64,000 nucleotides of DNA from Pseudanabaena mucicola str. Chao 1806 (GTDB lineage Bacteria; Cyanobacteriota; Cyanobacteriia; Pseudanabaenales; Pseudanabaenaceae), in NCBI RefSeq assembly GCF_030323025.1, contig NZ_CP097329.1:2838001-2902000 (forward strand), read 5' to 3'. Within the stretch, counting starts at the first letter, position 1, and every line of letters begins with the position of its first letter. The notes under the pieces were generated by a model. That model made no database searches and was not told where the DNA came from. It worked only from the letters and a program-made list of their open reading frames with translations. Position numbers and translations under genes: made by a program. Below, piece by piece: positions 1 through 62,426 of this stretch.

Positions 1-2300
1 GTGCGGGGAAATCGATGTTGATTAACGCGCTCTTAGAACGGGAATTACTTTATAGTGCTGAGGGACATGCCACGGGGACAGAATGTAAAATCGCCTATGC
101 CAAAACTGGTGAAGAACGTGTGGTTTTAACTTTTTTAAGTGAAGTGGAAGTACGCGAACAAATTAAAACTCTATCGCAGTTAATTGGACAGAATGCACCA
201 GCAAATATTAATCAACTGGAATCACTCAAACAGTTGCAGACCTTGACCTTATCTGTAATTGAACAGGAAGGGGGCAAGAGCAAGTCGAAACGGGCTAAAG
301 ATGCTGATGCCTTGAATCTATTGATCGAGGGGTTTATCAATAATCGCGATCGCATTAGTTCGATCGCTAATGCTACCTATTCCATGGAACAGTTTGGCTT
401 TGAGAATCTCAAAAAAGCTGCTGACTATGCTAGACGAGGCGCTAATAGTGCAGTTTTAAAGCGTGTGGAATATTATTGCAATCATCCACTTTTGCAAGAT
501 GGCAATGTGATCATTGACACCCCCGGGATCGATGCACCTGTCAAGAAAGATGCCGCCTTGACCTTTGAGAAGATTGAAAATCCTGACACTTCCGCCGTGG
601 TCTTTGTGCTGAAAACCGCAGCAACTGGAGAACTTACTTCCGAGGAAACGGAACTCAGTGAAAAGATTCAAGGTAATGCAGGTATTCGCGATCGCGTATT
701 TTATGTCTTCAATCGCATTGATGAAACTTGGACTAACGATCAACTGCGTGATCGCCTGAACTATACAATTTCCAGTCAATTTCGCAATAGCTCAAAAATC
801 TATAAAACTAGCGGCTTACTTGGATTCTATGGCAGTCAAATTCGACATACTAGTATTGGCGATCGCTTTGGTTTAGATTCCATTTTTGCCGAAAGTGTTA
901 AATCAGTGGGTGGTACTGAAGGCACACCTCAGTTTGTGAATGAGTTCAATAGCTATTGCTTAGTTTCGGGTAAGCTGGATATTGACAAGTTCCCAATTCC
1001 TTATAATGTTTTGCAAACAAGTGTCAAAAATGAGAAGTATATTCGCTTGCTGGGGGAGTTAGGAACGGGTCTAATCGAGCAACTGATTAAGGATAGTGGA
1101 ATTGAGGAATTTCGCAATGCGATTACTCACTATTTGACCAATGAGAAGCGCCCCCTATTATTTGCCGATCTTGCTGATGACTTACAGCCTATTTGTATTG
1201 CCCTGCGCCAGTTTTATCTAGAAACATGGCACAAGTTAGAGAGTCAGCCTCGCGATATTGAGGCAATTAAATTGCAGGAGTTGAAAAAGCTGGGTCACGA
1301 CCTCAAGCAAATTGGCGATCGCTTGCGTGAACATATTGCTCAAGAGCTAAATGATGCAGTGGCAAGCAATAAAAATCAAGGTTTGGAGGCAGACTATCGC
1401 AGACTCAAAGAGAATATGGTGCGGCGTTTGGATGAGTTGATTGGTTATTTCTCCGTTGCTGAGGTACATCAACGCGCCCAAGCTAGTCACCGCCGTAATT
1501 CCGTTGTACCTGTGATGGGGATTTTGGCAGAGGGTTTCTACTACTTAGCCAATGAGTTAGAAGATGTGTTGGTGGAGAATTCACAAAGGATTGTGGAAAA
1601 CTTCTTCCAGAATTTGATTGAGTCAATCAAGAAAACAGAATATTATCGCGAACTCTATCGCCTATTGGGCAATGATGGCGGTATTGAATCCCGTCTCGAA
1701 AAGCTAGCTATCACGGCATCTGATGCTTTGGTCAATGAGGCGCGGACAGAATGCGATCGCTATGTGCGTGAACGCCCAGAGTTTTACGCAGAAGAGACTA
1801 ACTCCATCTATCAGTTACGTCAAACCTTGCAACAAGCCTGTCGTGGCTATGACTATCAAAGTATGATTGAGGCTGAGCCAGCAATTCGGCAGTTGTTAAA
1901 GCTTGATTTTGAACTGAAGGTTAAAGATACGATTATTCGTACTTTTCGTCAGTCAATCAATCAAACTTTGAGTACACATTTGCTAGCAAGTGCGGAGAAA
2001 CAATCGGATGCAATTTTGCAACAATATGATCATGCGCGTGATTATTTGGCACAAACTTTGGAGAGGGAAGCCCAAGTTAAACTTGATAAAAATCGCAGTT
2101 TACAAGTTGCTGTAGAGAAAAATATTGCTATTTACAATGAAGCAGTTTCTGGCATTAATCAATGTTTAGAAGCATTAGATTTATCTCGAAAGAATCTGCC
2201 AATTATCAGCGAGTCAGACTTGCTAATCCCAATAGTTATCTCTGATGTAATTGATGCCGAGTCTTTTGTTATTGATGAAGCTAGTGACTCAGAAGTATAA
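1..2300 (+). CDS. Dynamin-like large GTPase, 5'-truncated by window edge
   Basis: The frame is open to base 1 and begins in the P-loop (AGKS at bases 3-14), so the start lies upstream; an ATG at base 15 would cut off the Walker A motif and is not the real start. Visible GTPase elements are the P-loop, a G2-like threonine in HATGTE, the G3 motif DTPGID near residue 165 and a G4-like FNRID. The remaining ~500 residues are mostly charged helix, as in the stalk of bacterial dynamin-like proteins. Such proteins bind and remodel membranes upon GTP hydrolysis. Family assignment is secure from these motifs; the membrane role is family knowledge and not shown here. The gene ends at a strong hairpin. 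Confidence 0.85.
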   Translation, partial: AGKSMLINALLERELLYSAEGHATGTECKIAYAKTGEERVVLTFLSEVEVREQIKTLSQLIGQNAPANINQLESLKQLQTLTLSVIEQEGGKSKSKRAKDADALNLLIEGFINNRDRISSIANATYSMEQFGFENLKKAADYARRGANSAVLKRVEYYCNHPLLQDGNVIIDTPGIDAPVKKDAALTFEKIENPDTSAVVFVLKTAATGELTSEETELSEKIQGNAGIRDRVFYVFNRIDETWTNDQLRDRLNYTISSQFRNSSKIYKTSGLLGFYGSQIRHTSIGDRFGLDSIFAESVKSVGGTEGTPQFVNEFNSYCLVSGKLDIDKFPIPYNVLQTSVKNEKYIRLLGELGTGLIEQLIKDSGIEEFRNAITHYLTNEKRPLLFADLADDLQPICIALRQFYLETWHKLESQPRDIEAIKLQELKKLGHDLKQIGDRLREHIAQELNDAVASNKNQGLEADYRRLKENMVRRLDELIGYFSVAEVHQRAQASHRRNSVVPVMGILAEGFYYLANELEDVLVENSQRIVENFFQNLIESIKKTEYYRELYRLLGNDGGIESRLEKLAITASDALVNEARTECDRYVRERPEFYAEETNSIYQLRQTLQQACRGYDYQSMIEAEPAIRQLLKLDFELKVKDTIIRTFRQSINQTLSTHLLASAEKQSDAILQQYDHARDYLAQTLEREAQVKLDKNRSLQVAVEKNIAIYNEAVSGINQCLEALDLSRKNLPIISESDLLIPIVISDVIDAESFVIDEASDSEV

Positions 2301-2304
2301 ATGA

Positions 2305-2343
2305 TTTATTTGCATACAGATCTCAGTACTGTATGCAAATAAA
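2305..2343. terminator. Bidirectional hairpin terminator
   Basis: A perfect 15-bp stem (TTTATTTGCATACAG and its complement) with a 9-nt loop lies between the convergent ends of the dynamin-like gene and the Uma2 gene. A-rich and T-rich tails flank it on both sides, so it can serve both genes. Confidence 0.75.
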
Positions 2344-2350
2344 CATTTTT

Positions 2351-2950
2351 CTATCCCAAACACAACAAATTAAATATGTCATCTACTGTTACCTGCCAAT
2401 TTAAAATATCCAAAACTGGCAAAATATCCTTTCCACTCATCTTTTCGGGAAAGCGATCGCCTTCATAAACCATAATAAAATCTTGGGCTGGAGAAATCAG
2501 CCAACCAATCTCAGAACCATTGGTAATAGCAGAACTGATTTTGTTCATTACCCGCAAAGGCGACTGATCTGGTGAGAGAATCTCAATAATCCAATCAGGA
2601 GGAACTAAAATTTGATTGGCAACTCGTTTATTGGGTAAGAACGGTATATTCGCCCAACGCATCACCGCAATATCAGGAACAATCGATATATCACCAAAAT
2701 TACAGCGCAACTCAGGAAAAGCAAAAGCAAGTTTTTGAGGTTTACCAATCAGATTAATGGAGGTAACAATTTCTGCTTGAAAAGTACTATGTTGTCCCTG
2801 TGGCATAGGTTTCTGATAAATTTGACCGTCAATATATTCACTAGCAGGCTTAGTTTCTGGCAAAGTCAAAAACTCTTCGATTGATAAGTGATTTGTGCTT
2901 AACGATCTAGCTGGTTCTAAATTTTGATGTTGCTCTGATGCGATCGCCAT
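2351..2950 (-). CDS. Uma2 family (DUF820) PD-(D/E)XK-like protein
   Basis: A 199-residue protein with the Uma2 layout: an N-terminal SIEEFLTLPE segment, the SEYIDGQIY strand, the VPDIAVMRW motif and the WIIEILSPDQS motif that supplies the acidic nuclease-fold residues. Cyanobacteria carry dozens of such genes and most have no known function. The usual lysine following the IEILSP strand is not obvious, so catalytic activity is uncertain. ATG start at 2950. It converges on the dynamin-like gene. Confidence 0.85.
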   Translation of the reverse strand: MAIASEQHQNLEPARSLSTNHLSIEEFLTLPETKPASEYIDGQIYQKPMPQGQHSTFQAEIVTSINLIGKPQKLAFAFPELRCNFGDISIVPDIAVMRWANIPFLPNKRVANQILVPPDWIIEILSPDQSPLRVMNKISSAITNGSEIGWLISPAQDFIMVYEGDRFPEKMSGKDILPVLDILNWQVTVDDIFNLLCLG

Positions 2951-3232
2951 TACCTAAACCTCTATAAGAGATAGAAAGTTCATACCCAAAAACTATTCTA
3001 GATTAGATCTGGGTTTGTTTGACATGCGGCATAATGACATATACGGTTATAGTTTTTCTAGATTAAAACACTCTAAAAGCAACTCAATTTATTGAGATCA
3101 CTGCTTCTAAACAATTAGCATCTTTAGCTGTTGTTGCTGCAGCTTTGGATGAAAACGTAGCAAGTTTTTATCTGGTAGTGGTCAGTAAAGGAGTGATGGT
3201 TAAAATAGAGAGGTAGAGACAAGGAGGCAAAG

Positions 3233-3517
3233 ATGAAATGTCCGCACTGCCAAAGTGAACAGGTGGTCAAAAATGGCAGAGATTACCACCAAGACGGCAA
3301 AGCAATCCAAAATTATTTATGCAAAGGATGTGGCAAGCGATTCAACGAACGGACAGGAACAGCGATGTCAAGACTAAGAACACCCGCAAGTATCGTGTCC
3401 TATGCGCTGAAAATGAGGACAGAGGGGATGGGAATCAGAGCAAGTGGGAGAGTGCTAGAAAAATCGCACATCAGCATCATGAGATGGGAGGAAAAACTGG
3501 CGAACCAGTCACAGTAA
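3233..3517 (+). CDS. IS1-family InsA-like protein
   Basis: A 94-residue protein with an N-terminal CPHC..CKGC zinc finger and a C-terminal helix-turn-helix segment (GIRASGRVLEKSHISIMRWEE), the usual layout of the N-terminal part of IS1 transposases, which binds the terminal repeats. An AGGAGG ribosome site lies just upstream of the ATG. It is intact, but its catalytic partner downstream is frameshifted, so the element is probably immobile on its own. Confidence 0.75.
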   Translation: MKCPHCQSEQVVKNGRDYHQDGKAIQNYLCKGCGKRFNERTGTAMSRLRTPASIVSYALKMRTEGMGIRASGRVLEKSHISIMRWEEKLANQSQ

Positions 3518-4229
3518 TGGAGTCCAGATGCGCCAGCAGGAGGAGATGTAACCATCGAAGGAGATGAAATTTATACTCACATAGGCGAGAACCTTCCCAC
3601 CCAGAGAATCAAAAGGGTGGACAGTGATATTTATCGAACGTAACAGTCGCTATTGGATTGAGGCAAAGGCAGGAAGCTAAACCACTGAACTATTTGCGAA
3701 AGTAACGAAAACAGCAGTGCCATGGTCAAAGGCAAGTCAATACATCCGATGGTTTACTGATGGCGAAAAGAGATATGCCCAACAACTGTGGCAAATGGCA
3801 AGTGTATACCTCAAAGCTACCGAAGTAATTCGTGAGTATCGACATCACAAGGTATGGCGATATGGATTAGAAGTGGCGATCAAAATCAAAGGCTCACACG
3901 GTAATCATCCTGTCGAATGGGTAAAACCTGAGCATCCCTATACCGCGATTAGCGACAAGAGTGACATTCATGCTAATCACAATGAAGCAAACAACAGTGC
4001 TTTGAGAAGGAGATGTAGCGCTTATCGCCGCAGACAAAACCTGTATGCGAAAAATACTGAAGGATTACAACGCGCAGTCACTGTGCAAAGATTAGTGCAC
4101 AACTGGGTAAGACCTCATGGGGGCTTAGGCAAGAACAAGACTCCAGTTATGGCGATCGGTCTGTATCATCGACCGATTTCGATGTTAGAGTTGCTCTCAT
4201 TACAGGGCTTTACTTCTCTCACGCCTTAA
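3518..4229 (+). pseudogene. Broken IS1-family InsB-like transposase
   Basis: After the InsA stop the frame reads WSPDAPAGGDVTIEGDEIYTHIGEN, then stops appear. A second open stretch from 3717 encodes a degraded catalytic domain (KASQYIRWFTDGEKRYAQQLW, later SVKVQRL-like HNWVRPH). Several frame changes and stop codons separate the parts, so no full-length transposase can be made by simple reading-through. It ends 12 bp before the IS right end. Confidence 0.65.
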
Positions 4230-4572
4230 CTGACCAGTGCCAAGAAACATCTAGCCATAGATGGCTATGTAGTTTTGATTATTCAAGAAAGCAAATTATT
4301 TTCTCTTTTTGATGAACAGAAAAGAACGAAGGAAAGAGAAGTAGAAATAATTCAAGATTTTATAAATTCATTCTCTTTGAAGCTAGTTTGGTATAAGCGG
4401 GTAGACTCTACTCCACAAAGAGAAAAAATGAATATTCATTTTAATGAATTTGCGACAAAAAACTTGTCACTTCAAACTTATCTGTCCCCAATCAAAAAGG
4501 AATTGTTTAATTTAAAGTTTGACAGCAATTATGTTTTAGATGACTATATTATTCTTGCCCAAATTTAAGTTT

Positions 4573-4824
4573 ATGGCAGAAAAAACACCACGTATTAGCA
4601 TCCCTCCCGAAGTTAGAAAATATATCTTCGATCGCAACAACTACCGATGCCAAAGCTGTCATAAAACTGACCTTACGGCGAAGACGCTCCAAGTCGATCA
4701 CATTATTCCCCTAGCCCAAGGTGGAACTAATGACTTCAGTAACCTCCAAACCCTCTGTGCTAAATGTAACCGTAAGAAAAGCGCTAAAATTGATCCCCGT
4801 TTTCGTAGACTTTATAGTGACTAG
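4573..4824 (+). CDS. HNH endonuclease
   Basis: An 83-residue protein with a complete HNH nuclease core: CQSC, then LQVDHIIPLAQGG with the metal-binding DH, the NLQTLC asparagine, and CAKCNRKKS. The ATG at 4573 is preferred over one 33 bases upstream, because the protein then starts with the usual MAEKTPRISIPPEVR leader. Small stand-alone HNH proteins of this type occur in many cyanobacteria; the substrate is unknown. It converges on the next gene, 12 bp apart. Confidence 0.85.
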   Translation: MAEKTPRISIPPEVRKYIFDRNNYRCQSCHKTDLTAKTLQVDHIIPLAQGGTNDFSNLQTLCAKCNRKKSAKIDPRFRRLYSD

Positions 4825-4836
4825 TACGCACCACAA

Positions 4837-5547
4837 TTAAGAAGGTCTTTGTAAAGCGGCTCTGCGAACTGAGTTGATGCGTTGCTCTGAGCGAGCATCG
4901 ATTTTGAGATTGATGGTTTGATGCTTATTGCGATCGACCAAAGGAAATTGAGTTTGCCAGTTACTAATAATGTGAAAATAATTTTCGGCATCCTCTAGAC
5001 AGTATTCATAGATTTCATTAAGAATTGTTTCATAGCCTTTCTCTTTTCTTAATACTTTAATCCCATTCCGAAAAACATAATATCCTTTAATTCTTTTAAA
5101 AATCGGAATTCCTAAATAAGCAAAGAGATTATTTAATCCTTGATTAAGATCATTACGCTGACTTGTTCTTTGCAAATCAAGGATTCTAATACTATCAATT
5201 TTAGGAATAAAGTCTAGAGCCTCAATCCTTTTACGCAGACAAAACATATCACTGGTTGATAGCCCATAACCAATGAAATACTTTCCCTGTAAACTATGTA
5301 GGTCATTTAAAATATCTTGAATGATCTTTTTTTCTTGCGTACTTGATTCAATAAATTGAATTTTAATGTACTGCTCATTACTATCTTCTAAAATGCGAGT
5401 AAGAGTATATCCAAAAATCTTTTGTACTAGTCCATCCTTCTGAAAATCACGACACCACTCTAAGTCTAAAAATACAAGATCATAGATTGAGCCATCGTAG
5501 AAATTGTTGATATATTGACTTGGAAGCTTAAATTCCCTTTTATACAT
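4837..5547 (-). CDS. Putative DEDD-type 3'-5' exonuclease-like protein
   Basis: A 236-residue protein with motifs in the order expected of a DEDD (RNase H-fold) exonuclease. LVFLDLEW near residue 24 could be Exo I (D..E), GYGLSTSD near residue 95 could be Exo II, and IYEYCLEDAENY near residue 180 could be Exo III. The intervening ILDLQRTSQRNDLNQGLNNLFAYLGI resembles the helical part of such proteins. I recognise the fold from motif spacing only. The reading is AT-rich. It could instead be an inactive homologue. Confidence 0.5.
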   Translation of the reverse strand: MYKREFKLPSQYINNFYDGSIYDLVFLDLEWCRDFQKDGLVQKIFGYTLTRILEDSNEQYIKIQFIESSTQEKKIIQDILNDLHSLQGKYFIGYGLSTSDMFCLRKRIEALDFIPKIDSIRILDLQRTSQRNDLNQGLNNLFAYLGIPIFKRIKGYYVFRNGIKVLRKEKGYETILNEIYEYCLEDAENYFHIISNWQTQFPLVDRNKHQTINLKIDARSEQRINSVRRAALQRPS

Positions 5548-5690
5548 AGAGTTTGACTCAGAGGTTGGCTAGGAGAATGGCTAGCAGGCAAATCACTACC
5601 ATTTATATATCCTAATACCAAAACACAAAATGGCTACGTCATTTAAAGAGGTTTATTTCTCTTTCTTTGTCAGAAATGAGCCTATACTTT

Positions 5691-6380
5691 TTAAATCTCA
5701 AAATTAAAGCCACTCTGCTTGATTTGTAGGTATTTAGTCTCATCAAATTGATATAACTTCGCAGCCCGATGGGATACACCCTGCTCTAGCTCACCAGTAT
5801 CGAATAATAAGTCCATACTGAGTATTTTTTTGCGAAAGTTGCGTTTGTCAAGGTCACGATCTAGAACAGTTTCATAAAGTTTTTGTAACTGCGTCAAGGT
5901 GAATTTTTTAGGTAATAATTCAAATCCAATTGGTTCATACCGAATTTTGCTACGCAGTCTAGTGATCGCCTTTTCTAAAATCTGCTCATGGTCAAAGGCT
6001 AATTTAGGAATTTGAGAAAGAGAAAACCAGTAGGCATCTCGTGCATCAGTTGATGCTTGAATTTGTTGTTCCACTAAGTTAATCAAAGCGTAGTAAGCAA
6101 CCGTGACAATGCGATCGCGGGGGTCACGATCCAAGTCACCAAAAGTATATAGCTGCTCCAAATACACATCGTGAATTCCTGTTTCTTCTTGTAATTCCCG
6201 CAAAGCTGCTTGCTCTAAAGTCTCATCCATCCGCACAAATCCCCCTGGGATAGCCCATTGTCCTTGAAAAGGGGGTATATCACGCTGAATAAGCATTATT
6301 TTTAAATCTAGCTCTGCATCAAGTCCAAAAACAATGCAATCTACAGTGAGCGCAGGTCGCGGATATTCATAATTATACAT
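5691..6380 (-). CDS. nrtR: NrtR-type Nudix-domain transcriptional regulator
   Basis: The first ~140 residues form a Nudix domain with a full Nudix box ([19 protein letters not shown]). The last ~80 residues ([20 protein letters not shown], then ..[14 protein letters not shown]) match the winged-helix part of the NrtR family. NrtR proteins sense ADP-ribose-type NAD metabolites through the Nudix domain and repress NAD-salvage and ADP-ribosylation genes. The gene diverges from a run encoding ADP-ribosylglycohydrolases and a nicotinamidase-like enzyme, which fits that role well. ATG at 6380. Some Nudix proteins with this layout are enzymes, but the context favours a regulator. Confidence 0.8.
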
Positions 6381-42169: not shown

Positions 42170-42226
42170 GCGATTAGAAATCTTGCAATCTAGACTTAGC
42201 TTTTTTTGATTAGCTGAAAATTTATT

Positions 42227-51393: not shown

Positions 51394-52649
51394 CTGAGAT
51401 CTTGCACCATTCTAAAAAGGGGTTGCAAAAAGACGAGAGATGTGAAAAAAAGGGCGTAGTACTAATTTAAATAACGATATGGAAAGCATCGTTAAGCACG
51501 CCCAAAGGTTAGTTTATAGCCTTCTGAGCTTTATGCCTAGTGTGTATCAAAAAGCCAGTCTGAATGCGATATTGGGACTATTTCTCGAAGCGCAGGGACA
51601 TCCTTTACCTCAACATACGCAAGTAAAATCAGCCAGTTCGTTAAGTCGGTTTCTAAATCACTATAACTGGTCTACGCGGTCAGTGATTCGGATAACCCGT
51701 CAGATCATCTTAGAGCAAATCGCTCAGCATCGACCATACAAAGGGAGTCCATTGAAGATCTTGATTGACTTGACCACATTGACAAAATGCGGCAAGTTTT
51801 TGCATCTAAATACCTCGACGGCTGACGGCTCAGCCCCATGGGTAAGGATGCTCAACGGTAAGCGAGGACTTCATCTAGTCTTACTTTATCTAGTCTACGG
51901 TGAGTGGCGAATACCATGGAGTTTTAGAGTGTGGCGCGGCAAGGGATATGCGAGTCCATCAGACTTAGCTTGTAAATTGTTGGGAACAGTGCCAAAGCGA
52001 TTAACCCAAGGCAGGAAAGTAATTGTTCTTGCTGATACTGAGTTTTGCACAGTCAAGTTTTTAAATACAGTCCGAGCAAAGGCTTGGCGAGTTGTTGTGG
52101 GCATACGCTGCAATCGTAAGCTTCAAGATGGGCGTTCGGTCAAACAACTTTATCGTCATGGCAAACGGGGGCAACAAGTTTTACTCGAAGGGCTAAGTAC
52201 CACATTTACCATCTCTTGGTTCTGGCTCAAAAGAGCTGATAGCAAACGAGAGTTACGCTTTGTGATTTCTTCTCATCCTTATTCGGGTGCTTATCTGGTG
52301 ATGTTGGGTCGTAAGCGTTGGGCGATTGAGGGATTTTTCAAAACCATTAAACATCGCTTTGGTTTACATTGTTTTGGGCAGTCTACAAAACTTGGAGTTT
52401 TTCGTTGGCTAATTCTATCTCTGATTGCTTATCTTTTGGCTCACTGGAGTACTCAATGGTCGCCACCTCCTGTCTTGGACTGGAAGGCTGCCTCTGATTT
52501 GACACTTTCTGTTTTATTCCCTTCTGTCCTTTGGTTAAAACTCCTCCGATACATCCGAATTAATGCTGATATTGCTGCTCGTTATGGTTTTAAAATTGTT
52601 CTCAAACCCATTCCTACTTAAAGCTTTTGGGAATGGTGCAAGATCTCAG
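51394..52649 (+). mobile_element. IS4-type insertion sequence in darG
   Basis: 1256 bp with perfect 19-bp inverted repeats CTGAGATCTTGCACCATTC, flanked by a TCCA duplication (51390-51393 and 52650-52653). It carries a single intact transposase gene and so may still be mobile. Joining the flanks across one TCCA restores the darG frame (GCGLGG-LNWEDV). Confidence 0.9.
51479..52621 (+). CDS. IS4-family transposase
   Basis: A 380-residue DDE transposase. Candidate catalytic residues: Asp in LKILIDLTTLTK, Asp in KVIVLADTEF and Glu in RWAIEGFFKTIKHRFG, the last matching the Y/W-R-E-K signature of the IS4 group. The N-terminal LLSFMPSVYQKASLNAILGL is typical. Full-length, no frameshift. Its stop lies 28 bp inside the right inverted repeat side. 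Confidence 0.88.
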   Translation: MESIVKHAQRLVYSLLSFMPSVYQKASLNAILGLFLEAQGHPLPQHTQVKSASSLSRFLNHYNWSTRSVIRITRQIILEQIAQHRPYKGSPLKILIDLTTLTKCGKFLHLNTSTADGSAPWVRMLNGKRGLHLVLLYLVYGEWRIPWSFRVWRGKGYASPSDLACKLLGTVPKRLTQGRKVIVLADTEFCTVKFLNTVRAKAWRVVVGIRCNRKLQDGRSVKQLYRHGKRGQQVLLEGLSTTFTISWFWLKRADSKRELRFVISSHPYSGAYLVMLGRKRWAIEGFFKTIKHRFGLHCFGQSTKLGVFRWLILSLIAYLLAHWSTQWSPPPVLDWKAASDLTLSVLFPSVLWLKLLRYIRINADIAARYGFKIVLKPIPT

Positions 52650-55774: not shown

Positions 55775-56200
55775 TTAGTTTGACCAATCTTCGATTTTTA
55801 GTTCCACAATTTGAGCAAAATCAGACTTGTTCCGAGTAAGCAAAGTTGCATTATTAACTAGAGCGATCGCAGCTATTTTTAAGTCCATATTTCCCAGCCG
55901 AGGATAAGTTTTTCTGAGACGTTGATGTTCTACTACTGCGATGTTGTCAAAGGGAATAACCACAATAGCCTGATAATCAACTAAAGTTTGTTGCAATCCC
56001 TGATAGCCTTTAACTGTCTCATCTGTAGTTCTTGCCTTAGAAATAAAATTTAGTCTGCCTCTAATCTGTTCTTCGTAGGTAATTACAGTGACAGCAACTT
56101 CAACATCTTCCGAAAGTCTTGATAGCCTAGCTAGGATGTTTCTACCTTCTTGTCCTTTGCGCTGAATAAAACTTAAGTGATCAGTGTCAAGAATATACAT
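55775..56200 (-). CDS. vapC: PIN-domain toxin, VapC family
   Basis: A 141-residue PIN-domain RNase. Acidic metal residues are at MYILDTDHLSF, the central VTVITYEEQIRGR and MDLKIAAIALVNNATLLTRN with a final KSDFAQI. All four PIN positions seem to be present, so it is probably active. The antitoxin gene (69 codons) lies 18 bp upstream. VapC toxins cleave tRNA or rRNA; the target here is unknown. Confidence 0.85.
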   Translation of the reverse strand: MYILDTDHLSFIQRKGQEGRNILARLSRLSEDVEVAVTVITYEEQIRGRLNFISKARTTDETVKGYQGLQQTLVDYQAIVVIPFDNIAVVEHQRLRKTYPRLGNMDLKIAAIALVNNATLLTRNKSDFAQIVELKIEDWSN

Positions 56201-56500: not shown

Positions 56501-58720
56501 CTATGGCTTCTGCTCAGGGAACATACACTTATCAGAATCGCAACCCGCAGGGCCCGCATCCATCAACTCACCCGAATCATAACGCAACAAACTTGCGTAA
56601 AAATCATCAGACTTGCGACGTTCTAGCACCTCAGCACTGAGCTTCTCATAGGTAGCCTTATCGATTGGCTCAAAGGGCAAACGAGGGAAGGTTTGTAGGT
56701 CATCAAAACGTGCCAATAGCGCCGCCGAGATATAACCCTCATCATCACGAATCGCTTCGTAAATCTTCTTCCCTAAAGGCTCGATTTCATGCTCGCGCAA
56801 TTCCAAAGTTGCAGAAGTATTATGACGGGTGTAATGCTTCTGCACCTGCATATAGAAATCAAACTGCGCCATCACATCGAACTTACTGATGTCCACCATG
56901 TCCGCACCGTCAAGGTCAGCCCAAGAAACACTCACAGGAATCTCCACCAGCCATTCCGTACATCTCGGATCGAACGGATCATTTAGCAATTGTCCATTCT
57001 CATCCTTATCCGATTGCGAAGGAATGATGCTATAGCCATAGTCCATGCAAGCCCGCGCCACAGGATCTTCCTTACGGAAAGTAATCCGACGGATAAAGCG
57101 CTGCGCCTTCGGAGGATGCCACCCAGGGGAAGCGCCAGTGAGCAGAGACTTGGTATTGTGAGACTTCAACGCCCCTTGCCAGTACCATGAGTCATCATCA
57201 TCAATTCCCGATACTGCAAAGTCATAGCTGTAGTCGGGAGTAGTTTCAAACTCGATGCTAGTGACGCGATAGGGATAGAATGCAAACTGGCGTTTTGGTT
57301 CTGGTAATGGACGTAGCTGACATTTGCGACTGTGGGTATTGAGATATGCCAAGGATTCAGGTTGTGACAACATCCGACTCAGAGATAAGCCCCACATATT
57401 CTTTTGACCTTGGAAGTTCTCACCTTGAGTATTATGGAAAATGCTAAAGCACAAACCAACAGCTTCACCAACCTGTTGCAGATTACGAATAAAGGCTTCG
57501 CTTGATGAATCAATGGAAAGATCACCTTTTACCCGAACGCATCTATCGGTATCGATCAAACCACAGAAGAAGGCAAGAATTGTCTCGCGGGAGGATTTAC
57601 GAATTGCGAGAGGAATCCGATCTAGATCCTTACTGCTGCCTTTCTCCAACTGATTCAATTTCAGCCAATCAAACAACTGTCCAGAAGCAAAGGTTAATTC
57701 GCCTCTTGTGCCGCCATTGCGAGGATCATGGCTGATTTTGCCTACGAGTCCAAACTGATTTTGGGCGATCGCTTGCAAACGCTCTACCAAATCTAGCTCT
57801 TTCTCATTGAAAGCAAATCGTACCCGATCTTTGCTTTCACTCATAGCGCCATCGCCAAACAAGCAACCTAAGAAATAACCCAATTCTGGATTTAATGTAG
57901 TTGGTGTTGAGATTTCCGCAGTCAGCACACCACGACTATGCCCTAAAAGTTCTTTACGACCTTCGCGAGTATATTGAGCAGAATTGAGGCTGAGCAATAG
58001 AGCATCTTCTGTATGACGGTATTCACCAAGGGAATAGTCAATGTCCATACCAAGTTCTAGGTGATCGGCTCTCACCCATTGATTGGCGATCGCAAGGCGA
58101 TGATTAGGAGTCATCCGCAAGACACGACCATTTGCAAGAGTGACACGCACTAGGTTGAGAGGATGATTAGCGATCGCTGTATCCGCAGCAATGCCATTCC
58201 GCACACTCAAATCTAAACCTTTGCTCTCACCACTACCCGCTTCGACAATTTCATCGGCATAGAGCAAACCTTGATCAAAAATGCGTAAAGCAGTGCGATC
58301 GAGGCATCCCGCAGGTTGAGTTGTTGTGCAACGATTCGGGCGGCGTAAGCCATGCGCGTCACAATATTCCCAAACTGTCTGATGCACAATTTCACGCCAG
58401 CGATTGAGATAATCAGCTTCCTTCTCTTTGAAGTCTAGCCCCTGCACGGTATCAGGACGACCTGCTTCCCACCAGCGCAGCCATTCCACACCAAAGGCAT
58501 GAACGAAGAAGTCAAATAATCCTGTGAAGGATACACCCACAATTGGGTCGATTTCACGACTGTATTGATAGCGTTCTTCATTGAAGCGATGATTGAGCAA
58601 AGCCGCGACAGATAAAGCACCTGCTTTAAAGGCTTCTTCCTGTTCTTTCTCATTGCGAGGATTGAGTTGATTGAGATGTACCTCCGATAGATTACAGTGA
58701 AAATCAGCACCGAGAATTTC
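56501..58720 (-). CDS. nrdJ: Class II (B12-dependent) ribonucleotide reductase, exon 2 with intein 2
   Basis: From the intron 3' splice site the frame reads EILGADFHCNLSEVHLNQLN, then a conserved NrdJ sequence to the C-terminal redox Cys pair GCDSDKCMF. It reads on in one frame to the TAG-region stop at 56501. A 384-residue intein lies between TTTQPAG and TKSLLTGASPGW. Without it, exon 2 gives ~355 residues of enzyme. NrdJ reduces ribonucleoside triphosphates using adenosylcobalamin. The exon has no own start; a Met at 58600 is internal. Confidence 0.9.
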   Translation of the reverse strand, partial: EILGADFHCNLSEVHLNQLNPRNEKEQEEAFKAGALSVAALLNHRFNEERYQYSREIDPIVGVSFTGLFDFFVHAFGVEWLRWWEAGRPDTVQGLDFKEKEADYLNRWREIVHQTVWEYCDAHGLRRPNRCTTTQPAGCLDRTALRIFDQGLLYADEIVEAGSGESKGLDLSVRNGIAADTAIANHPLNLVRVTLANGRVLRMTPNHRLAIANQWVRADHLELGMDIDYSLGEYRHTEDALLLSLNSAQYTREGRKELLGHSRGVLTAEISTPTTLNPELGYFLGCLFGDGAMSESKDRVRFAFNEKELDLVERLQAIAQNQFGLVGKISHDPRNGGTRGELTFASGQLFDWLKLNQLEKGSSKDLDRIPLAIRKSSRETILAFFCGLIDTDRCVRVKGDLSIDSSSEAFIRNLQQVGEAVGLCFSIFHNTQGENFQGQKNMWGLSLSRMLSQPESLAYLNTHSRKCQLRPLPEPKRQFAFYPYRVTSIEFETTPDYSYDFAVSGIDDDDSWYWQGALKSHNTKSLLTGASPGWHPPKAQRFIRRITFRKEDPVARACMDYGYSIIPSQSDKDENGQLLNDPFDPRCTEWLVEIPVSVSWADLDGADMVDISKFDVMAQFDFYMQVQKHYTRHNTSATLELREHEIEPLGKKIYEAIRDDEGYISAALLARFDDLQTFPRLPFEPIDKATYEKLSAEVLERRKSDDFYASLLRYDSGELMDAGPAGCDSDKCMFPEQKP
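57155..58306 (-). other. Intein 2 in NrdJ (LAGLIDADG type)
   Basis: 384 residues, from Cys in PAG-CLDRTALRIF to Asn in LKSHN-TKSLL. The +1 extein residue is Thr. Block B-like TPNHRLAI is present, and a homing endonuclease with two LAGLIDADG motifs (LGYFLGCLFGDGAMS and AFFCGLIDTDRCV) occupies the middle. All terminal splicing residues (Cys1, penultimate His, last Asn, +1 Thr) are intact. In motif 2 Gly is replaced (DTDRC), so the nuclease may be weak. Confidence 0.9.
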
Positions 58721-59898
58721 CAGTATTTTTATTGTTTTGTTATCCTAGAGGCTCTTTATCCTCTAGTTCTAACGCTTCATAATTCGCGTTAGCTCCGAGT
58801 ACCTTTTCTACCAAAGAACGAAAATAGTAAAGGATCTCTTTACGGCTAGTTTGTTTACCTAACAAGGCTTTGCTAAGAGTTCTCTCATCTTGAATATCAA
58901 ATTGATTACGGACTTGTTCGTAGAAAGGTTCAAGAACAGGCTTAATCTTATTGAGCTTACAGGTCATTATCTCTATTGGATAAGTCTCTGCAAACTTAAG
59001 GGCGATCGCCTGTATTACCTGAGCATTTTCAGAGAATGTCTTTGAGCGAGTAGCGTTTACAGAACATTTGTATGAACAATATGTTTGAGGATTATTCTTG
59101 CGAAATAAAACTTCAAAACTCTTCTTACAGTATGCACAGGTCGTAAAGACTTGATAATAGCGTTGAAGATTGTATTGTTTTAGACTTTCTGTTTGCAGTT
59201 GAACTTTTTCACTCTTTGCTCTAGAGTCTAACCACTTCTGACGATACTCAGCATCTTGCAATCTAGCCTTTGCTTTTTGGGCAATTTTTGCCTTTGTTGA
59301 TTGGGATGCTTCTACACCGTAGCGTGGATTGTTTTGACCAGAGGTATCCATACCCAATCCATTTGCTATTTGTTTCCACTCTTGCTTGAGTTGCTCAAAA
59401 ATAAATGGTGTGGGATGAATTAACTTTCGTAGGTCTTTCTCTTGAAGAACTTTAACATTCAGTCCATAGTCTTTCTCAAAAGTTAAGATTCGAGGTAAAT
59501 CAGTCTCATAATTAAATCCACCTTTAATCTCTACATAGGAACCATCAGCTAATAGAAAATCAGGTTTATATGAGCCTCCCGTAGAAAGCGAAAACGTTTT
59601 GACCTCATATTGCCATTGGATTCCCATATAGTCGAGATATCGAGCGTAAATGTACTCTAAGGTCGATTTGAGATAATAGCCTTGATAGTAGCCGCAATAA
59701 GTTCTTCCGTTCATTAATAGCCCGACACTCGTGGAGGTTTCTATTCTAAAAAGATTATAGTGCAAACGCACTTTTCTTGTAGGTTCATCCTCTACTCTGT
59801 ACGGTGCTGGAAGTGCTTTAGTTCTTCCAGTTACCACGGGATTAGCGTCTCAGCCTTCCCCGTTTTTGCCGGGTTTTTAACGTGAGGCAAAATTATCT
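58721..59898 (-). other. Group I intron in nrdJ, 1178 nt
   Basis: The upstream exon ends AATCCGTGTGGT (NPCG) and the downstream exon begins GAAATTCTCGG (EIL), restoring NPCGEIL. The 5' exon ends in U and the intron in G. CGTGTGGT pairs with the intron sequence GCCTCACG over 7 of 8 bases, with the U-G wobble at the splice site (P1). Further pairs fit the core: CCCGGC/GTCGGG (P3), ACGGG/CCCGT (P4), CTGGAAG/CTTCCAG (P6a), AGTAG/CTACT (P7). It carries its own homing endonuclease gene. Confidence 0.88.
58740..59714 (-). CDS. PD-(D/E)XK homing endonuclease of the group I intron
   Basis: A 324-residue protein from the ATG at 59714 (MNGRTYCGYYQGYYLKSTLE). The frame is open upstream to a GTG at 59837, but that part reads the ribozyme core (P4-P8). 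KSTLEYIYARYLDYMGIQWQ, YEVKTF, then YKPDFLLADGSYVEIKGGF gives the PD..ExK nuclease site. A CAYC..CSYKC zinc finger and basic helices (KAKIAQKAKARLQDAEYRQK) follow as DNA-binding parts. This resembles I-Ssp6803I-like PD-(D/E)XK enzymes of cyanobacterial introns. It ends 19 nt before the intron 3' end. Confidence 0.8.
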   Translation of the reverse strand: MNGRTYCGYYQGYYLKSTLEYIYARYLDYMGIQWQYEVKTFSLSTGGSYKPDFLLADGSYVEIKGGFNYETDLPRILTFEKDYGLNVKVLQEKDLRKLIHPTPFIFEQLKQEWKQIANGLGMDTSGQNNPRYGVEASQSTKAKIAQKAKARLQDAEYRQKWLDSRAKSEKVQLQTESLKQYNLQRYYQVFTTCAYCKKSFEVLFRKNNPQTYCSYKCSVNATRSKTFSENAQVIQAIALKFAETYPIEIMTCKLNKIKPVLEPFYEQVRNQFDIQDERTLSKALLGKQTSRKEILYYFRSLVEKVLGANANYEALELEDKEPLG

Positions 59899-62426
59899 AC
59901 CACACGGATTGAGTCCATAACGACTCATTCGATGCTCAAGCTCTAGTTCCAAATCATTCATCACTTTTTGCATAAGTTTTCTCTCATCTATTATTGGATT
60001 GGTTAGGAATTTGTGTGATGCTCTAGTAGAAGCTGCCGAAGATATTCCTTAGCTAAATCCCTAGACTGACTATAGAGTTCCACAAATTTTTGTTTCTTGT
60101 CGGCAGTGTTTAATAGGTCAGCATTAGAACGGGCGATCGCCTCACCCGCCCATTGAATTGCACCTTCACCCGAATAGTATTGTTTGCGAACAGCATCCAC
60201 GCATTCTTGTTCAGTCGGTTTGCGATGGAATACCCTTGTGTGGTTCGCCATACGAAGTGCATCACGCTCAGGATCGATGCGCCAGTTACCCGCTTCATCT
60301 TGCTGCCAGAGATTATCCTTTGCGACAGAACCAAGTGTATCTTCAGAGGAGAACTGGCGCATACCTGCTGAGTTGTGTGTGAGATAGCCATCGCAATAGA
60401 AACAATGGGCTTCTTCTACTTCAATGTCATAGGTCTGCACATAGTCTTGACTACCCAAACCTTTGACACTTACAGGAATATCCATACTGACATCAGATTC
60501 AGCAATATAGCGCTCATAATTGGAATTGCCCGAACGAGAGCCTTGGAAGCCCATATCACGCATTTCGCTGTAGGTATAGGCTTCTCGCATCATTTCACCA
60601 GCGATCGTAAATCCATACATCTTCAATCCTTGACGAATTTCGCCCTTGACTGAATGTTGAGCAATGAGAGCGTTATATCGTTCCTTTAGGGCAGGGATAG
60701 TGAGGTTATATTTTGCTTGCCAGTTTTGCTCTTTAGGTCTGGTAATAACGATTCTGCCAGCAATCCCAAGACTCGAAAGAACTGCACTTACCTGTCTAAC
60801 AAATTGATGGTAAACAGAGGTTACTAGATGCGGTGGACGATTATCGACTGCACCATCACTATCCATTAATCCTGCAAGATAAGCAGAACGAATATCTGTA
60901 GATCCTTGCAAGATGAAAGATGGAACTTCTAAAACAGTGTTTGGTTGTTTAATATGCTTATAGAAGTATTCAGCTAAACGAATTGAAGAACAGACTGTTT
61001 TAGCGGTGTTCTCACCATTGACAACTCCGTGAGTAGCTGTCAAGCCAAACATTGCCAGAGCTTGATCCAGTTTGCTCTGAAGCTTTTGGCAAAGCTCGGG
61101 CTGGGTGGCATTCATAGCCCACTCTACCCGTCCATAGGGCTTGGCATGTTTATTTCGCCCTAAAGCTACATAGCCATCACCATGCGTAAAACCAATCAAC
61201 CAAGCAACTTCAGGAGTTAACGCGGGAATAGTAATAGACTTAGCAGTGCGACTATGACTAGGACGTTGCTCAGTATCGTCTGCTGGTAAATGGGTAACTG
61301 TTCCCGAAAGAATTTGAATACTGTGCATGAGGCGATCGCCTTCTTCAAGTGCCGCCACATATTTCCAACGAATGCTCCCTTTAGCATCAGCCAAAACGGC
61401 TACACGATGATTAATTGTTGCTCTAGGGAGAGTAGCATTGGTTTCAATTTCTTGAACTTCTTGCATTCCCTGATCAAATTTATTCAGGACTTTCCGAAAT
61501 CCTAAAGGAGTCTGAACCAAGTCGCCAATTTGTACATCCTTAATCGCAACTAAGCCTTTAGATGTATGCACAAGGGCATCTTCAGGAAGACAACGCCTAA
61601 TATTGCCAGCCACGATGCAAACTGCGGCTTCATCGATGAGGATGCAGCACTCGACTGAGGTGAGTTGACGACCGATCGCCTTGTTTAAAATATTGGCACA
61701 GCGATCGTAAAGCGTAGGCAACTTGACAGGATTTGCCATACCACCAAAACCCTTGAGGGCTTCACCACTGGGGCGCACATCACTGATATCAACAGTGATT
61801 TGGACGGGATTGGATGCATCAAACTTCTCGTCGCTCGATAGCTCTAGTAGAGACTGGTAGGACTTGACCCAACCTTGACGACTATCGCCCACATGGAATT
61901 TAACGGCATTGTTGGCATAGTCAAACTCAACTTCGGTGTTGTGGCGACGATGCTCGACAGGAGTTGCCCCGATCGCACCGACCACATTTACTTGCAACTG
62001 GTTACGAATTACGGGCAGTTGGCAGATGTACTGCGGCTCTAATACGCCACCCGTGCCAGAGCCTTGCATAGCGAGATCCATCATCAAGCCAAAGGCTCGC
62101 CAGTCAATCACATTAGTGCTGGTGCAATTGTAAGAGCCTGAAAAGTTTTCGGGGCGATCAACCCATTCAGTGCCACCGACCCACAGCCAACGCCCAGAGG
62201 TGAGGGACTTGAGCTGCTTTTGCATCTTGTCAATCAGGTCAGCTTGTTCTTGGGTCAGCTTACCTAGCTTTTTTAAACCTGTAAGTGTGCGATCGCATAC
62301 CTCCGCCCAGCTTTCCCGCTTGTTATTATATTTGCGGCTATAAGTCCTGAAAAATACGGGATAAGCAGCAGGAGCGCTATCGGGAAACCTAACCTCTTTC
62401 TGGAATCGTGTAAATTCTTGTACCAT
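59899..62426 (-). CDS. nrdJ: Class II ribonucleotide reductase, exon 1 with intein 1 and a frame break
   Basis: From the ATG at 62426 (MVQEFTRFQKEVRFPDSAPA) the frame gives the NrdJ N-terminus and the substrate region (SGSYNCTSTN, GCGTGGVLE-like GSGTGGVLE) and, after a 407-residue intein, SAGMRQFSSEDTLG.. to QLLLEHHTNS, where it stops at 60003. The conserved continuation (NPIIDERKLMQKVMNDLELE, then LEHRMSRYGLNPCG) lies in the -1 frame and ends at the intron. Exons minus inteins total 2375 nt, not a multiple of three. So one base is missing or two are extra, either a real mutation or a sequencing error. Confidence 0.85.
60372..61592 (-). other. Intein 1 in NrdJ (LAGLIDADG type)
   Basis: 407 residues between GNIRR and SAGMRQFS. 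It starts Cys (CLPEDALVHTSKG) and ends GYLTHN with +1 Ser. Splicing block B reads ATINHRVAV. The endonuclease has WLIGFTHGDGYVALG and YLAGLMDSDGAVDNR, both LAGLIDADG motifs intact with their acidic residue, so homing activity is plausible. Terminal splicing residues are intact. Confidence 0.92.

Follow-up and report, generated by a model that had tools for sequence, protein, structure and literature searches.

A class II reductase gene in two reading frames

In this study, we analyzed a 64,000-nt stretch of the Pseudanabaena mucicola str. Chao 1806 genome (contig NZ_CP097329.1, positions 2,838,001 to 2,902,000; hereafter the window). Its minus strand encodes a ribonucleotide reductase, NrdJ, whose gene is occupied by a group I intron and two inteins (Table 1). 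The intron is inserted in phase 0 between GGT (Gly) and GAA (Glu) and splits the motif NPCGE after Gly (written NPCG/E below). A preliminary description of this DNA had placed it exactly between the catalytic Cys-Gly and Glu, and its coordinates and length proved exact. The same description spoke of one gene needing splicing in three places. There are two ORFs instead: NrdJ-N contains the first intein, and NrdJ-C contains the intron and the second intein; the N-terminal ORF ends at 60003, upstream of the ATG of the intron-bearing ORF at 59973, and this two-piece organization had been missed.

Table 1 Features of the nrdJ locus and of the intron core, numbered by position in the window
Feature	Position	Strand	Remarks
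NrdJ-N (N-terminal half, class II reductase)	60003..62426	-	807-aa ORF including intein; end ...LLLEHHTNS-stop
Intein in NrdJ-N	60369..61599	-	Ends approximate (alignment gap against intein-free congener G021)
Stop-restart segment (cassette), 215 nt	59899..60113	-	New tail of NrdJ-N, stop, spacer, NrdJ-C start and first 25 codons
Spacer, 29 nt	59974..60002	-	From NrdJ-N stop (60005-60003) to NrdJ-C start; weak Shine-Dalgarno-like GAGAG
NrdJ-C 5' exon	59899..59973	-	ATG ... MQKVMNDLELELEHRMSRYGLNPCG
Group I intron, IA-like, 1178 nt	58721..59898	-	Relatives at same site; core covariation
P3	5' strand 59868..59873; 3' strand 59726-59721	-	149/150 cells paired; both-side change in 4/6 pairs
P4-P5	59836..59863	-	P4, 59863-58 with 59841-36; P5, 59855-53 with 59846-44; from alignment
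P6	59835-33 with 59805-03	-	Invariant; P6-P6a region 59803..59835
P6a	59830-24 with 59813-07	-	171/175 cells; both-side change in 6/7 pairs
P7	5' strand 59793..59799; 3' strand 58801-58796	-	C(A)GAGUA with UACUCG, the latter inside the ORF; 150/150 cells
P7.1, between P7 and P3'	59734..59792	-	59792-89 with 59737-34; 81/100 cells; fourth pair weak
P8, nine pairs	5' strand 59712..59720; 3' strand 58816-58808	-	5' strand holds intron-ORF AUG; 203/221 cells; both-side change in 9/9 pairs
Intron ORF, 324 aa + stop, probable PD-(D/E)XK homing endonuclease	58740..59714	-	In P8 loop; overlaps P8, P7', P9 and P9.1
P9	58792-86 with 58775-69	-	In last ORF codons; 175/175 cells
P9.1	58766-60 with 58751-45	-	In last ORF codons; 175/175 cells; P9-P9.1 region 58745..58792
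NrdJ-C 3' exon	56501..58720	-	EILGADFHC... to stop
Intein in NrdJ-C	57143..58307	-	Ends approximate (alignment gap against congener G021)

The window's NrdJ is a class II, B12-dependent ribonucleotide reductase of the RTPR type, matching the whole-enzyme profile TIGR02505 (NCBIfam). NrdJ-C scores 390.5 bits (cut-off 340; E 1.3e-116). NrdJ-N, whose best stretch covers profile positions 16-280 of 724 (E 8.7e-91), alone reaches 305.1 bits, below the cut-off of 340 as expected for a half, and positions 280-516 of the profile were filled by the middle stretch from a congener (L009). PDB sequence searches with an NrdJ stretch gave no match. When the NrdJ-C exons were joined in silico, they formed one open frame of 764 aa, intein included, with the catalytic Cys and Glu of NPCGE both present, while the unspliced frame meets a stop two codons inside the intron. 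The restart ATG is 25 codons upstream of the intron; the predicted chain ends are ...LLLEHHTNS at the C-terminus of NrdJ-N and MQKVMNDLELELEHR, that is (M)QKVMNDLELELEHR, at the N-terminus of NrdJ-C. With the inteins removed at their approximate ends, the chains would be about 397 and 376 residues long. The 215-nt segment that holds the stop and the restart has no alignment to uninterrupted congeners and is homologous to the same segment in other split alleles. Both inteins have Pfam support and are missing in congener G021, which bears out the two inteins of the preliminary description. Beside the nrdJ genes, ORFs at 51479-52621 and 55775-56200 of the window look transposase-like and PIN-domain-toxin-like by eye.

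The split NrdJ is apparently the sole reductase of the cell, judging from profile and sequence searches. PF02867, PF00268, and PF13597 matched none of the 11 genomes searched, including that of the window, and matched 11, 7, and 6 of 14 control genomes, respectively; PF02867 is also blind to the window's own NrdJ. With an NrdJ query, only the two halves were matched in genome G000. Because no other reductase was found in the genome, the two pieces presumably work together.

The intron core and its reading frame

P1 and P10 were read directly in the sequence. Exon GUGUGGU pairs with the IGS GCCUCAC, with a U.G at the splice site and one internal U-U mismatch, and the IGS stretch AAUUUU pairs with GAAAUU of the 3' exon. 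The terminal G (omega-G) is present in 29 of the 30 introns extracted from this site, the exception being L107, whose 3' end is unresolved, and the introns of relatives share the insertion site and the ends. The P1 with a U-G at the 5' site and the omega-G at the 3' site, as first proposed, are thus legible. The genome (complete, 4,530,340 bases in one contig) contains one full copy of the intron. The other genomic match spans 26 bases (window 42180-42205) and agrees at 92% with a piece of the intron ORF. A Pseudanabaena metagenome assembly (L034) encodes an identical ORF product.

The Rfam (release 15) model RF00028 (Intron_gpI) gave no match in the window at its gathering score of 50 bits, none in the intron stretch at E values up to 10, and none in the loci with six ORF-less relatives at E values up to 1. 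The few Rfam matches listed were to unrelated families below their gathering scores and were treated as chance. The preliminary description had named a covariance-model match as a check and its absence as a refutation. RF00028 fails on the intron and on the six ORF-less relatives, and the core was therefore tested by comparison. From the 30 extracted introns, 26 were aligned with the ORF part removed, giving 25 distinct rows; those left out were G044 and Okeania (in both, P3' not placed by the pattern), L033 (another intron type), and L107 (3' end unresolved). We counted 58 pairs in P3, P4, P5, P6, P6a, P7, P7.1, P8, P9, and P9.1. Bases were paired in 1401 of 1446 cells (96.9%), compared with a mean of 84.3% and a maximum of 86.0% in 500 column shuffles, and only 32-44% of cells were paired when the partner was slid by 1-3 bases. 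Both sides had changed in 35 of the 58 pairs, against a shuffle mean of 20.3 and maximum of 28, a covariation figure that is no probability because the shuffles do not preserve relatedness. P6 never varies and is therefore uninformative on covariation.

The core thus has the P3-P7 pseudoknot, a P7 with a bulged A and an invariant G-C pair, and a J8/7 of six nucleotides. Three types of P7 occur among the relatives, GAGUA/UACUC, GCGUA/UACGC, and GACUA/UAGUC, the last in G146. The candidate P3, P4, P6a, and P7 helices of the preliminary description are upheld by pairing and both-side changes across homologous introns. On this comparative evidence, the element is a group I intron whose core from P3 to P8, with the guanosine site in P7, is supported by covariation, and it is predicted to splice. 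Since the core covaries, we take the Rfam miss as a blind spot of the one RF00028 model; the intron family would comprise group I introns unseen by that model. RF00028 does detect, with 90.5 bits, a group I intron of another type that lacks an ORF and occupies this NPCG/E bond in a congener (L033, genome G023, minus strand 2176-1919). Introns of subgroup IA are marked by an additional helix (P7.1/P7.2) that lies between P7 and P3'. P7.1 lies in that place here and shows both-side changes in three of its four pairs; P7.2 is visible by eye and stands outside the pair count. The IA-like class, a guess in the preliminary description, is supported by this helix.

The intron ORF starts with an ATG at 59714, within the 5' strand of P8, and its last codons hold the 3' strands of P8 and P7 as well as P9 and P9.1, so that both ends of the reading frame also form part of the ribozyme core. 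Neither this overlap nor the nature of the ORF appears in the preliminary description. ORF-less relatives retain the 3' core RNA parts despite having no ORF. The product has the motif E...PD...(D/E)xK, in which E20, D52, and K64 are invariant and E62 is nearly so among 14 sequences. PHROGs searches returned an endonuclease (1.2e-8) and a Holliday junction resolvase (6.7e-6), Pfam returned Phage_endo_I PF05367 (2.2e-5) and NUMOD3 (0.0056), both below the cut-off, and an NCBIfam search of the ORF gave nothing useful. In the structure model (pLDDT 73.5, pTM 0.41), residues 2-122 align with nucleases of the PD-(D/E)XK fold, namely TnsA (Z 7.1), VRR_NUC (Z 6.7), and I-Bth0305I (Z 6.3), all with Z below 8; the top structural match of the model is a mitoribosomal protein (Z 7.8). 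Foldseek with this model gave no E-value under 0.001. I-Bth0305I, which belongs to the EDxHD homing endonucleases and is encoded in a phage group I intron, resembles the model in the nuclease domain over 76 residues (rmsd 2.5); its DNA-binding part differs, and its Foldseek E of 0.11 is not significant. The ORF product is a probable PD-(D/E)XK homing endonuclease, with predicted endonuclease activity.

Split and intron in other genomes

A 28-base pattern of the 5' splice site, with up to two mismatches allowed, was searched in 388 genomes of the class. The intron was found in 16, of which 12 have the stop-restart split upstream and four a continuous gene; G325, missed by the pattern, is also split. 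Beyond those four, the intron also occurs in continuous genes of Okeania, Nostoc carneum, Tychonema, and Microcoleus. The NrdJ-N tails after NADL have a mean identity of 0.57 between split alleles (78 pairs), 0.23 between split and continuous alleles (156 pairs), and 0.45 between continuous alleles (66 pairs), the means being taken without five close relatives (G019, G004, G021, G001, and G015). Two loci (L114 of G175 and L115 of G043) have nrdJ frameshifts near short single-base runs in the same stretch, possibly sequencing errors, and as they look like frameshifts they were not counted as split. In six of 30 loci (L081, L082, L084, L086, L088, and L090), a short loop, e.g. GEAERRAQGKGRYGLNPCGE, replaces the split or continuous stretch, which suggests that a break there may be easily borne.

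The halves are unlinked in three of three genomes taken from genus g24 (family f17), which were chosen for their broken matches. Here an ORF of 394-401 residues encodes the N half and ends in a tail like that of the split alleles. The C half is on other contigs in G083 and G118, and in the one-contig genome G096 it lies at 3,002,555, with the N half at 581,050. The restart of the C half is seen in G118 and G083; the G096 locus does not reach the restart region. G083 has no intron at NPCG/E, and G118 has an intein-like sequence after NPC (by eye). In these unlinked-half genomes (L131, L132, and L133), a UvrA-like ORF, by eye, adjoins the NrdJ-N ORF. Because the intron occurs in continuous genes and the split occurs without the intron in g24, the two need not each other.

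Related elements are also present outside cyanobacterial genomes. An IMG/VR viral contig (L134, 146,537 bases) has at 1418-5030 an nrdJ with this intron type (1155 nt) at the same bond; with its exons joined it reads without a stop for 819 codons, and the gene is unbroken with a tail of the split type. By its sequence, such an uninterrupted gene with a split-type tail may resemble the source. The Aneurinibacillus plasmid L135 (NZ_CP116888.1, Bacillota) encodes at about 2544-5973 a related endonuclease ORF (31.8% identity over 93%) in a putative intron, as read from the sequence, at NPCA/E of an nrdJ that is unbroken upstream; the products are annotated as hypothetical proteins. In a phage collection, only partial matches were obtained (12 records, 17-19% of the intron ORF product). 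Inteins lie at NP/CGE of NrdJ in L031, L032, and many of L085-L106, so the catalytic loop is targeted by unrelated self-splicing elements.

Origin of the split and comparison with known reductases

In the genus Pseudanabaena, 25 of 26 genomes match the NrdJ query: 18 genes are uninterrupted, four are split with the intron (two of one species), two have an intein at NP/CGE, and one has the other group I intron. The window aligns with the uninterrupted gene of G021 at 97.0% (63998-61600), 89.2% (60368-60118), 90.6% (58711-58308), and 95.2% (57142-56496) identity. The blocks without alignment are the first intein, the stop-restart segment together with the intron (one block, with nothing until 58711), and the second intein. 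Stop-restart segment and intron thus look like one foreign block, as if homing had brought the split along. On exon trees, whose support is low in places, split Pseudanabaena alleles are interspersed with uninterrupted congeners, with 7-8 changes of the split label over 37 tips, 15 of them split; the cassette has thus moved between nrdJ backgrounds. Between Pseudanabaena species, identity is 0.915-0.981 for the cassette, 0.946-0.952 for the intron, 0.83-0.86 for the N exon, and 0.915-0.92 for the C exon; recent co-conversion within the genus is only suggested because cassette and intron are hardly above the C exon.

We propose the following pathway for the window's NrdJ. NrdJ-N would be translated to its own stop at 60003, and ribosomes would re-start at 59973; on unspliced message they would reach a stop two codons inside the intron. 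Group I splicing, initiated by guanosine, would join Gly to Glu and complete NrdJ-C, and an intein would be lost from each half. With the break about 25 residues ahead of the catalytic Cys, the two chains would then assemble into one enzyme, the only reductase of the cell. The stop-restart segment would have entered Pseudanabaena with the intron, by homing and co-conversion of about 0.2 kb of upstream exon. This account of a mobile IA-like intron, a two-piece NrdJ whose parts assemble, and a split that entered by homing with co-conversion has in our estimate a probability of roughly 0.8. It draws on the intron position, the core covariation, the two ORFs, the conservation of the stop-restart, the unlinked halves, the lack of matches to other reductase families, and the mosaic, all at the level of sequence; from these we infer the assembly of the halves and homing as the cause of the mosaic.

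A serious contender, at rather less than even odds, is that cassette and intron came separately: recombination of the whole segment with a split donor would have divided the gene first, the intron having homed later or been present already. Intron and split each occur without the other, and the 7-8 label changes among 15 split tips fit independent movement. In genus g32, two split alleles have a near-identical upstream exon with introns only 62.5% alike, so intron and split can separate. Against separate arrival, the split Pseudanabaena genomes all have both elements and the 18 uninterrupted ones have neither, and the foreign block ends at the 3' end of the intron.

Far less probable than joint or separate arrival of the cassette is that the stop-restart is bridged, by bypass, frameshift, or a second tiny intron, with one full-length chain as the product. 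The two ORFs are indeed adjacent, 29 nt apart in the window and overlapping in G313. However, their relative frames vary among split alleles (0, +1, and +2); for the same reason, we rejected the view that the break arose from a frameshift or from faulty sequencing. In the 12 split alleles examined for the restart (those of the screen, with G097, which belongs to the window's species, replaced by G325), the restart ATG is 25 (nine alleles), 26 (two), or 29 codons (one) before the intron. A candidate ribosome-binding site precedes it in most alleles, the duplex with the anti-Shine-Dalgarno sequence ranging from -11.2 (G086) to -2.9 kcal/mol (window and G004) in these 12. Other in-frame start codons are present in several alleles, such as an ATG 36 codons (G313) or 10 codons (G150) before the intron. 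The spacer is not conserved, and the unlinked halves of g24 also speak against bridging.

That the split is decay or an assembly error and this nrdJ copy a pseudogene is very improbable: G175 and G043 do resemble simple frameshifts at this segment, but the same split recurs in several families with conserved tails, both halves keep open, conserved frames, and the searches turned up no second reductase. Equally hard to credit is that the element is another RNA insertion or a fused junk stretch rather than a group I intron, as the missing Rfam match might suggest, given the P3-P7 pseudoknot, the bulged A and invariant G-C of P7, the six-nucleotide J8/7, P1, P10, the terminal G, and the 35 of 58 pairs changed on both sides.

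Group I introns in the RIR (nrd) gene are known from Nostoc punctiforme (Meng et al. 2007) and Arthrospira platensis (Fujisawa et al. 2010), as related in passages of PMC12702839 and PMC3984707. The likeness is a group I intron in the gene of a cyanobacterial reductase; those passages mention no two-piece host gene for either intron. Meng et al. refer in their title to an insertion sequence element, whereas the ORF of the window's intron is a probable homing endonuclease. The intron itself belongs to a known kind, and such introns have been met in this kind of host gene before. In 2003, Liu et al. are said to have described four inteins as well as three group II introns in the RIR gene of Trichodesmium, likewise a cyanobacterial reductase gene crowded with self-splicing elements, though different and more numerous ones. 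Three splicing events are thus no record.

Reductases in two pieces are also known. According to passages of PMC2988022 and PMC3653736, nrdA-a/nrdA-b of Aeromonas phage Aeh1 is split by the homing endonuclease mobE and functional; the likeness is a reductase large chain in two pieces linked to a homing endonuclease. The Aeh1 enzyme is class I and phage-borne, with the endonuclease gene in the break and no intron spliced, whereas in the window the break precedes a group I intron by 75 nt and affects the apparently sole reductase of a cell. Thermus phage phiYS40 has nrdJ-a and nrdJ-b as two consecutive ORFs with a 12-nt spacer (in a passage of PMC3653736), an nrdJ likewise in two pieces but in a phage. 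In Pseudomonas aeruginosa, NrdJa-NrdJb is a class II reductase of two polypeptides from one operon (PMC4520616, in the part concerned). There, the active site is confined to NrdJa and NrdJb (229 residues) supplies the redox part at the C-terminus, whereas the window's break divides the catalytic part, 25 codons before NPCG/E, and is thus not of the NrdJa-NrdJb type. The same part of that 2015 paper calls the proteobacterial NrdJa-NrdJb the only split reductase found in a non-viral organism. Paper searches on split reductases turned up no description of the present split apart from one unexplained Nostoc mention: a passage of PMC5987646 on differences in lichen Nostoc includes 'split ribonucleotide reductase enzymes', and earlier workers may therefore already have noticed the split. 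The new part is the two-piece, apparently sole reductase split in its catalytic domain, and its tie to a mobile intron.

More tentatively, at not far below even odds, homing may have carried the cassette and thereby halved the only reductase of free-living bacteria through its catalytic domain, with halves that assemble, a fission that crossed cyanobacterial families on different nrdJ backgrounds, and halves that later came apart in one genus. The fission differs from that of NrdJa-NrdJb and passes through the catalytic part just before the radical-bearing Cys in many cyanobacteria in which no other reductase was found. Two questions thereby become testable: can a mobile intron, through co-conversion, change how an essential enzyme is divided into subunits, and can a reductase barrel be put together from halves whose genes are separate or even unlinked?
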